Positions 1 through 47,532 of a stretch of 47,532 bases of DNA are shown here, in pieces. Positions within the stretch are counted from its first letter, which is position 1, and each line of letters begins with the position of its first letter. Below the pieces are notes generated by a model, which saw nothing but the letters and a program-made list of their open reading frames with translations, had not been told where the DNA came from and ran no database searches. This DNA comes from Phycisphaerae bacterium (GTDB taxonomy: Bacteria > Planctomycetota > Phycisphaerae > Sedimentisphaerales > SM23-30), in assembly GCA_016342495.1 (NCBI GenBank), contig JAEIOG010000031.1, forward strand, positions 1-47,532, read 5' to 3'. Made by a program: the position numbers and the translations under genes.

Positions 1-80
1 ATCATAATAAATATATCCTCGCCCTCAAGTCTAATTAATGACAAGGAATTGTCTCACCCATTCTGGCACAGAGGGGTTTC

Positions 81-46477: not shown

Positions 46478-46795
46478 TTAGTTAGCTTTGATATCAGTTA
46501 TTTGAACTTCAAGATATTTCTGACGATGGCCAATACGACGACGCGAATTTTTACGACGACGGAACTGCATAGGATAAACCTTAGGACCAGCTACTGTATT
46601 AACCACTTCACCCAGCACTTTTGCTCCGGTAATATAAGGTTTGCCAATCTCTGTGCCATCATCATTGCGTACAAACAGAACTCTATCGAATTCTACTGCT
46701 GTTTCGCCTTCAACTAAATCACGAAGTTCGATACAAACTTTTTCGCCTTGCTGAACTTTATATTGTTTTCCGCCATCTTCTATTATTGCGTACAC
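46478..46795 (-). CDS. rplU: 50S ribosomal protein L21
   Basis: Large-subunit protein binding 23S rRNA. YAIIEDGGKQYKVQQGEKV, FDRVLFV, GAKVLGEVV and the basic FRRRKNSRRRIGHRQKYLEVQI block are diagnostic; 105 residues is full length. Translation starts at GTG 46795, with AGGAG eight bases upstream; the ATG at 46800 is out of frame. It is followed by its own terminator, and rpmA (L27), usually the next gene, is absent. Promoter proposed at 46956-46983. Confidence 0.96.
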   Translation of the reverse strand: MYAIIEDGGKQYKVQQGEKVCIELRDLVEGETAVEFDRVLFVRNDDGTEIGKPYITGAKVLGEVVNTVAGPKVYPMQFRRRKNSRRRIGHRQKYLEVQITDIKAN

Positions 46796-46955
46796 GTCAT
46801 TACTCCTGATATTTCTCTATTCTGGCCTTTGCATCAGTATTTTCTGCAACCAGATACAATCAGCTATGCCAATTTTCTATTTTTATGGGCCTGCCTTGGC
46901 CCCAAGTTGAAGCCAGACTCAGCTGACTAATCTTAATTTATGTAGTGAATAGGGT

Positions 46956-46983
46956 ATTATGACTATTTTCCTGGAAATAGCAA
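46956..46983 (-). promoter_or_regulatory. Candidate rplU promoter
   Basis: Minus strand: TTGCTA (46983-46978), 16-base spacer, CATAAT (46961-46956), giving a leader of roughly 150 bases before the GTG. Moderate match only. Confidence 0.4.
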
Positions 46984-47031: not shown

Positions 47032-47050
47032 TGTAAACAATCAGTTTACA
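47032..47050. promoter_or_regulatory. 19-base dyad, operator-like
   Basis: TGTAAAC (47032-47038), AATCA, GTTTACA (47044-47050): perfect 7-bp arms with a 5-base centre. It lies between the small-RNA terminator and the rplU promoter, about 50 bases upstream of the latter's -35. Confidence 0.4.
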
Positions 47051-47083
47051 TCATTATTTGCTCCAGTTCACCGAACTTTTAAT

Positions 47084-47122
47084 AAAAAAATACCGCGGAC
47101 TGTGGTGGTGTTCAGACCGCGG
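47084..47122 (-). terminator. Intrinsic terminator with no upstream ORF
   Basis: CCGCGG (47093-47098) and CCGCGG (47117-47122) pair, extended past an A-A mismatch by CTG/CAG. On the minus strand the stem is followed by TA and seven T (47090-47084). Confidence 0.88.
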
Positions 47123-47261
47123 CGGGAGGTTAGACTTGCCTGATTGGCTAGATATTGCCAACAACCGACATCCCTTATGTCAGCTTAAAGTCAGCAAAAA
47201 CCAAAAAAACAAGAATGGTCATTGGCTTTTCAGGTGAATAATTATTTCGTTTCTATTCACA
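47084..47261 (-). ncRNA. Candidate small structured RNA of about 175 nt
   Basis: A good promoter (47268-47296) and a strong intrinsic terminator (47084-47122) on the same strand bracket about 175 bases with no open reading frame of note. The predicted transcript begins with a hairpin (GTGAATA/TATTCAC arms, about 47260-47234), has two short hairpins in the middle (GACAT/ATGTC and TTGGC/GCCAA), and a C-rich single-stranded stretch AACCTCCCGCC just before the terminator that is complementary to a Shine-Dalgarno sequence. It does not show the end-to-end pairing of 6S RNA, a tmRNA tag, or the SRP tetraloop helix. Confidence 0.5.
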
Positions 47262-47267
47262 AGGACG

Positions 47268-47296
47268 ATTTAACCATTTTACTGCCAAATTGTCAA
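47268..47296 (-). promoter_or_regulatory. Promoter of the candidate small RNA
   Basis: Minus strand: perfect TTGACA (47296-47291), 17-base spacer, TTAAAT (47273-47268). Confidence 0.6.
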
Positions 47297-47532
47297 GTGC
47301 ATTTTCATTTGTTTTGTGCACATTAGTGATAAAAACTTAGTTTATCCGTATTAAAGTTGTTATCATCCCTGACATAAAACTCGGTAATAGATATGTGTAT
47401 TTTATATGCGCTTTATCTTGATAGTCATTTGTGTTATCACCATTTTTAATTTCAGATTCACAACCATCCCATAGTCTAGGGAATAGGTGTGTTAAGCTGA
47501 TTTGCGGTAGCAAAAATAGCTTTTTTTTGGGG
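47297..47532. other. Right-edge region, nothing recognised
   Basis: AT-rich sequence with stops in all frames at short intervals and no clear repeat, RNA or promoter beyond those listed. A run of eight T ends the window at 47521-47528. Confidence 0.4.

Follow-up and report, generated by a model that had tools for sequence, protein, structure and literature searches.

Introduction

In staphylococcal small RNAs such as IsrR the working parts are single-stranded C-rich regions, placed beside stems or in loops (PMC9410917). The Rhizobiales small RNAs SmelA075 and SmelA099, the former widespread in its order, display an anti-Shine-Dalgarno motif, CCUCCUCCC, in several hairpin loops (PMC3927594). 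The small RNAs of the Planctomycetota have hardly been charted; the table of a 2022 review holds eight for the PVC group (PMC9029176).

The window analysed here is the whole of a contig (G000:C195; 47,532 nucleotides) from a Sedimentisphaerales MAG of 5.4 Mb in 221 contigs, the sole genome of its genus within the set searched; the best matches of its rplU gene are to Sedimentisphaerales bacteria (Planctomycetota, Phycisphaerae). On the minus strand, at 47084–47296, lies a promoter–terminator unit that, with the chances about evenly balanced, we take to be a stand-alone gene whose product, a small RNA of some 178 nt, would use its C-rich stretches to block ribosome-binding regions without Hfq. 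We know of no such C-rich, Hfq-independent small RNA from the Phycisphaerae.

In its working the unit would stand closest to the C-rich-region small RNAs of the Firmicutes, for example IsrR, and it recalls the rhizobial loops – a resemblance of layout and not of descent. IsrR and other C-rich small RNAs of Staphylococcus are, like the unit, composed of stem-loops, a Rho-independent terminator and C-rich stretches lying beside stems or in loops (PMC9410917). They belong, however, to another phylum, no sequence similarity is claimed, and the unit is without known targets, regulator or conservation. With SmelA075 and SmelA099 it shares exposed sequence resembling the 16S rRNA anti-Shine-Dalgarno, but in place of repeated motifs it has one CCUCCC in a linker and a CACCACCA loop, and our searches found no relative. 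Length and the status of a free-standing gene are features held in common with 6S RNA (RF00013), which nonetheless has a separate locus in this genome and a different fold.

Results

The promoter described in the initial annotation, TTGACA and TTAAAT separated by 17 bases on the minus strand, is present exactly as claimed (47296–47268). The -35 element (47291–47296) matches the consensus at six of six positions, and the spacer ends in TGG, giving an extended -10 of the form TG G TTAAAT (47268–47276) whose hexamer (47273–47268) matches at four of six. A consensus scan passed over the promoter, the A expected at position 2 being absent from that hexamer. A weight matrix based on approximate E. 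coli frequencies ranks it as the top site on either strand between 46700 and 47532, with a score of 11.2 (10.2 without the TG bonus) against 7.5 for the promoter of rplU. Across the window, with both strands counted, 16 sites score 10.2 or higher, so the promoter taken alone is weak to modest evidence; the chance of an equally good one in the 335 bases preceding the terminator is about 6%.

The accompanying claim of a G+C-rich hairpin followed by seven T is likewise borne out, at 47123–47084. The stem (minus strand, 47092–47123) reads GCCGCGG-U-CUG-(AACACCACCA)-CAG-U-CCGCGGU, with its C-rich loop at 47112–47103, and the T7 run follows at 47084–47090. The structure is strong (-16.9 kcal/mol, z = -4.98), none of 200 shuffled sequences being equally stable. 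Terminators passing a strict filter (at least nine positions, at least seven G-C pairs, T5) are scarce: 1.18 Mb of the same genome yielded 22, three of which have a promoter of score 10.2 or higher no more than 330 bases upstream. No such pair arose in 600 kb simulated with the local base composition. Taken together, promoter and terminator exceed what chance would give, and the rarity of the pairing in the genome, together with its absence from the simulation, suggests that this is probably a real small-RNA gene.

Two further promoter–terminator units were seen in the same genome sample, both on the minus strand: one at about 8384 of contig L094, the other at about 13591 of L107. Their bodies measure 111 and 336 bases and contain stop-free frames of at most 36 and 82 codons, respectively; neither has a match in Rfam.

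With a putative start near 47261, seven bases past the -10 element, the predicted RNA (minus strand, 47084–47261) would be about 178 nt long. It folds at -49.7 kcal/mol (z = -2.96), a stability equalled by one of 200 shuffles. A 5′ stem-loop, GUGAAUAG..UUAUUCAC (47234–47260, z = -2.9), is followed by a long central hairpin (47135–47213; z = -3.3, computed on 47130–47215), by an 11-base C-rich linker, UCUAACCUCCC (47124–47134), and by the terminator. The linker, our candidate seed, is predicted to be single-stranded, as are the seeds of C-rich and anti-Shine-Dalgarno small RNAs, with an unpaired probability of 0.83–0.98; for the terminator loop the value is 1.0. Of the C-rich stretches noted initially, CTAACCTCCC and the loop are thus present and predicted to be unpaired, while the final GCC of the segment quoted as AACCTCCCGCC belongs to the terminator stem. 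The unit occurs as a single copy in the genome. It was said to lack an ORF, and its minus strand indeed holds no long one, the longest listed (36 aa) crossing the terminator; a 59-aa plus-strand frame (47058–47237), on which the initial annotation was silent, overlaps it.

Searches for relatives returned little. DNA searches of 161 genomes of the order, of 59 relatives and of plasmids gave no homologue of the unit and hence nothing to align; the genus is represented by one genome. The only matches in these searches were the window itself and, in one genome, a 21-base stretch of low complexity. A weak match to the promoter spacer on another contig of the MAG (G000:C197) lies inside a coding region and was dismissed as chance. 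Rfam gave no credible match at gathering or permissive thresholds. When 98 relatives were scanned with a covariance model made from this one sequence, only two stray matches came up (E 0.25 and 0.70), neither of them credible. As a control, the same kind of search recovered 6S RNA from 20 of 21 genomes, which indicates that, given a good model, the method does recover small RNAs; the single-sequence model, drawn from the one genome of its genus, is much weaker than that for 6S RNA. The absence of matches therefore says only that no conservation of the unit is recognisable at the level of the family.

The proposed anti-Shine-Dalgarno function was examined against 776 predicted start regions, taken from 1.18 Mb of the 5.4 Mb genome. 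The ribosome-binding sites of these genes are mostly AAGGA, AAGG, GGAG or AGGAG, and seldom GGAGG. Pairing of the linker below -12 kcal/mol was predicted for 22 of the 776 regions, against 7–61 for shuffled linkers – no excess – and the terminator loop likewise did no better than its shuffles; the linker is therefore no general anti-Shine-Dalgarno. A few starts carry GGAGGTT, among them L121:205 (CAGGAGGTTGGCATG) and L112:1725 (TTGGAGGTTTTCAGATG), and the C-rich segment may therefore have one or more specific targets. Elsewhere in the genome TAACCTCCCGCCG has no further perfect copy, and its four one-mismatch matches do not exceed the reversed control. No Hfq was found in this genome, nor in any of 13 relatives. 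What stands of the trans-acting regulator originally proposed is an independent unit with a good fold and exposed C-rich stretches; pairing no better than that of shuffles, and the want of a homologue in the genomes searched, count against it.

Discussion

A critical issue is whether the unit has an existence apart from its neighbour. It lies between the end of the contig and the single-copy gene for ribosomal protein L21 (rplU, 46478–46795, minus strand, GTG start), about 290 bases upstream of that gene and on the same strand, and this arrangement speaks for an attenuated rplU leader. The gene has, however, a downstream promoter of its own, TTGCTA-16-CATAAT (46956–46983, minus strand), the counterpart of the TTGCCA..CATAAT found upstream of rplU in relatives. 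In the family this promoter takes the form CTTGCCAAA..CATAAT, or near it, some 30–70 bases upstream of the start codon, and it is present in all of the relatives examined whose upstream sequence could be read; the leaders of those relatives are short. The terminator of the unit falls about 100 bases upstream of the rplU promoter, so that the unit, at the level of sequence, is not continuous with the rplU transcript and is not its leader – a reading that we consider very improbable. The unit RNA is predicted to pair only weakly with the leader of rplU (-9.7 kcal/mol). Less credible still, indeed scarcely so, is a housekeeping RNA that has diverged, 6S RNA for instance. A single-copy gene of about 180 nt with its own promoter and terminator would suit such a role, but there is no match in Rfam, the fold is not one long bulged helix, and identity with 6S RNA itself was rejected on finding RF00013 above cut-off at G000:C120:50413-50601.

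The main rival is of a different kind. At its right-hand end (47458–47532, ~75 bases) the window consists of one end, the CTATGGGATGGTTGTG side, of a dispersed repeat, of which the genome has 40 or more near-identical copies; the other copies listed sit at contig ends, unique sequence starts at about 47457, and the repeat is probably the end of an insertion sequence that broke the assembly. The terminator could be a relic, left by a transcript from further upstream that predated the insertion sequence, the promoter-like site being a product of chance and the RNA without function. A promoter that, taken alone, is within chance and a unit not conserved in searches of relatives both agree with this. 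Yet the ~335 bases from repeat to terminator hold no recognisable remnant of a gene (no Pfam match for the frames tested, no DNA match in relatives), and it is the whole body, beyond the terminator alone, whose fold outdoes the shuffles; we judge the relic unlikely, while regarding it as a serious competitor. A short mRNA is more doubtful again. It would encode either a hydrophobic peptide of 15 residues on the minus strand, MTILVFLVFADFKLT, the frame for which is visible in the sequence, or one of 33 residues on the plus strand, where a Shine-Dalgarno, GGGAGG (47124–47129), stands six bases before a TTG (47136) in a frame open to 47237. This GGGAGG and TTG start are the complement of the C-rich segment. 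Against the plus-strand peptide, no good promoter lies just upstream; the 59-aa frame has no Pfam match, and 58 other genomes gave nothing convincing for it (best E 0.06). The 15-residue frame is without a clear ribosome-binding site, and a U-rich stretch yields hydrophobic residues by chance.

We thus return to the small-RNA gene. Its sequence elements, their rarity, the predicted fold with its accessibility and the separation from rplU are computed; from them we infer transcription, a start site, base-pairing, targets and effect. As judged from sequence, promoter and terminator are the unit's own and stand apart from neighbouring genes, as in a small-RNA gene, and that the unit is transcribed as an independent RNA seems to us likely. 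From the unit to the edge of the repeat (about 47458) no gene is seen on this strand that the terminator could serve. RNA polymerase with a sigma-70-type factor would start near 47261 and stop at the hairpin and T7 run (47123–47084). The RNA would fold into the 5′ stem-loop, the long central hairpin and the terminator. Two stretches, UCUAACCUCCC and the loop AACACCACCA, would stay exposed and would most likely pair with G-rich ribosome-binding regions in a small number of mRNAs, perhaps just one. Such pairing would block translation with no need of Hfq. A fuller version we put forward tentatively and hold to be rather unlikely as a whole: a lineage-specific, Hfq-independent planctomycete small RNA in which CUAACCUCCC and the terminator loop ACACCACCA repress selected mRNAs bearing GGAGG or GGUGGU. 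The searches suggest that the gene is probably an orphan, a lineage-specific regulator of ordinary type. By itself it amounts to a single unproven orphan gene; if confirmed, it would place the logic of C-rich pairing without Hfq outside the Firmicutes.

The surroundings of the unit contain further structures. The leader of rplU (46796–46950) is about 150 bases long, compared to ~30–50 in relatives, and contains a hairpin, GGGCC..GGCCC (z = -1.7); it is possibly a lineage-specific control region. Downstream of the gene there is a hairpin with a T run at about 46425–46393. Between the terminator of the unit and the rplU promoter lies a perfect, operator-like inverted repeat, TGTAAACTGATTGTTTACA (47032–47050). 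As a shared operator this palindrome, TGTAAAC-N5-GTTTACA, was set aside, since the genome holds no other perfect copy.

The left end of the window (1–76) is common to other contig ends of the genome (L087 and, reversed, L125), and many other contig ends belong to repeat families, which indicates a genome rich in mobile elements. At about 19233 of L127 (minus-strand offset) there is a frame with repeated SIHAPSGGA- and FNPRSLGG-like motifs, as from translated CRISPR repeats. Near-identical hairpins, GGGGACAGTCACCTATT..AATAGGTGACTGTCCCC, occur at about 19832 of L102 and 2512 of L129 (reverse-strand offsets) and have the appearance of REP-like dispersed palindromes.
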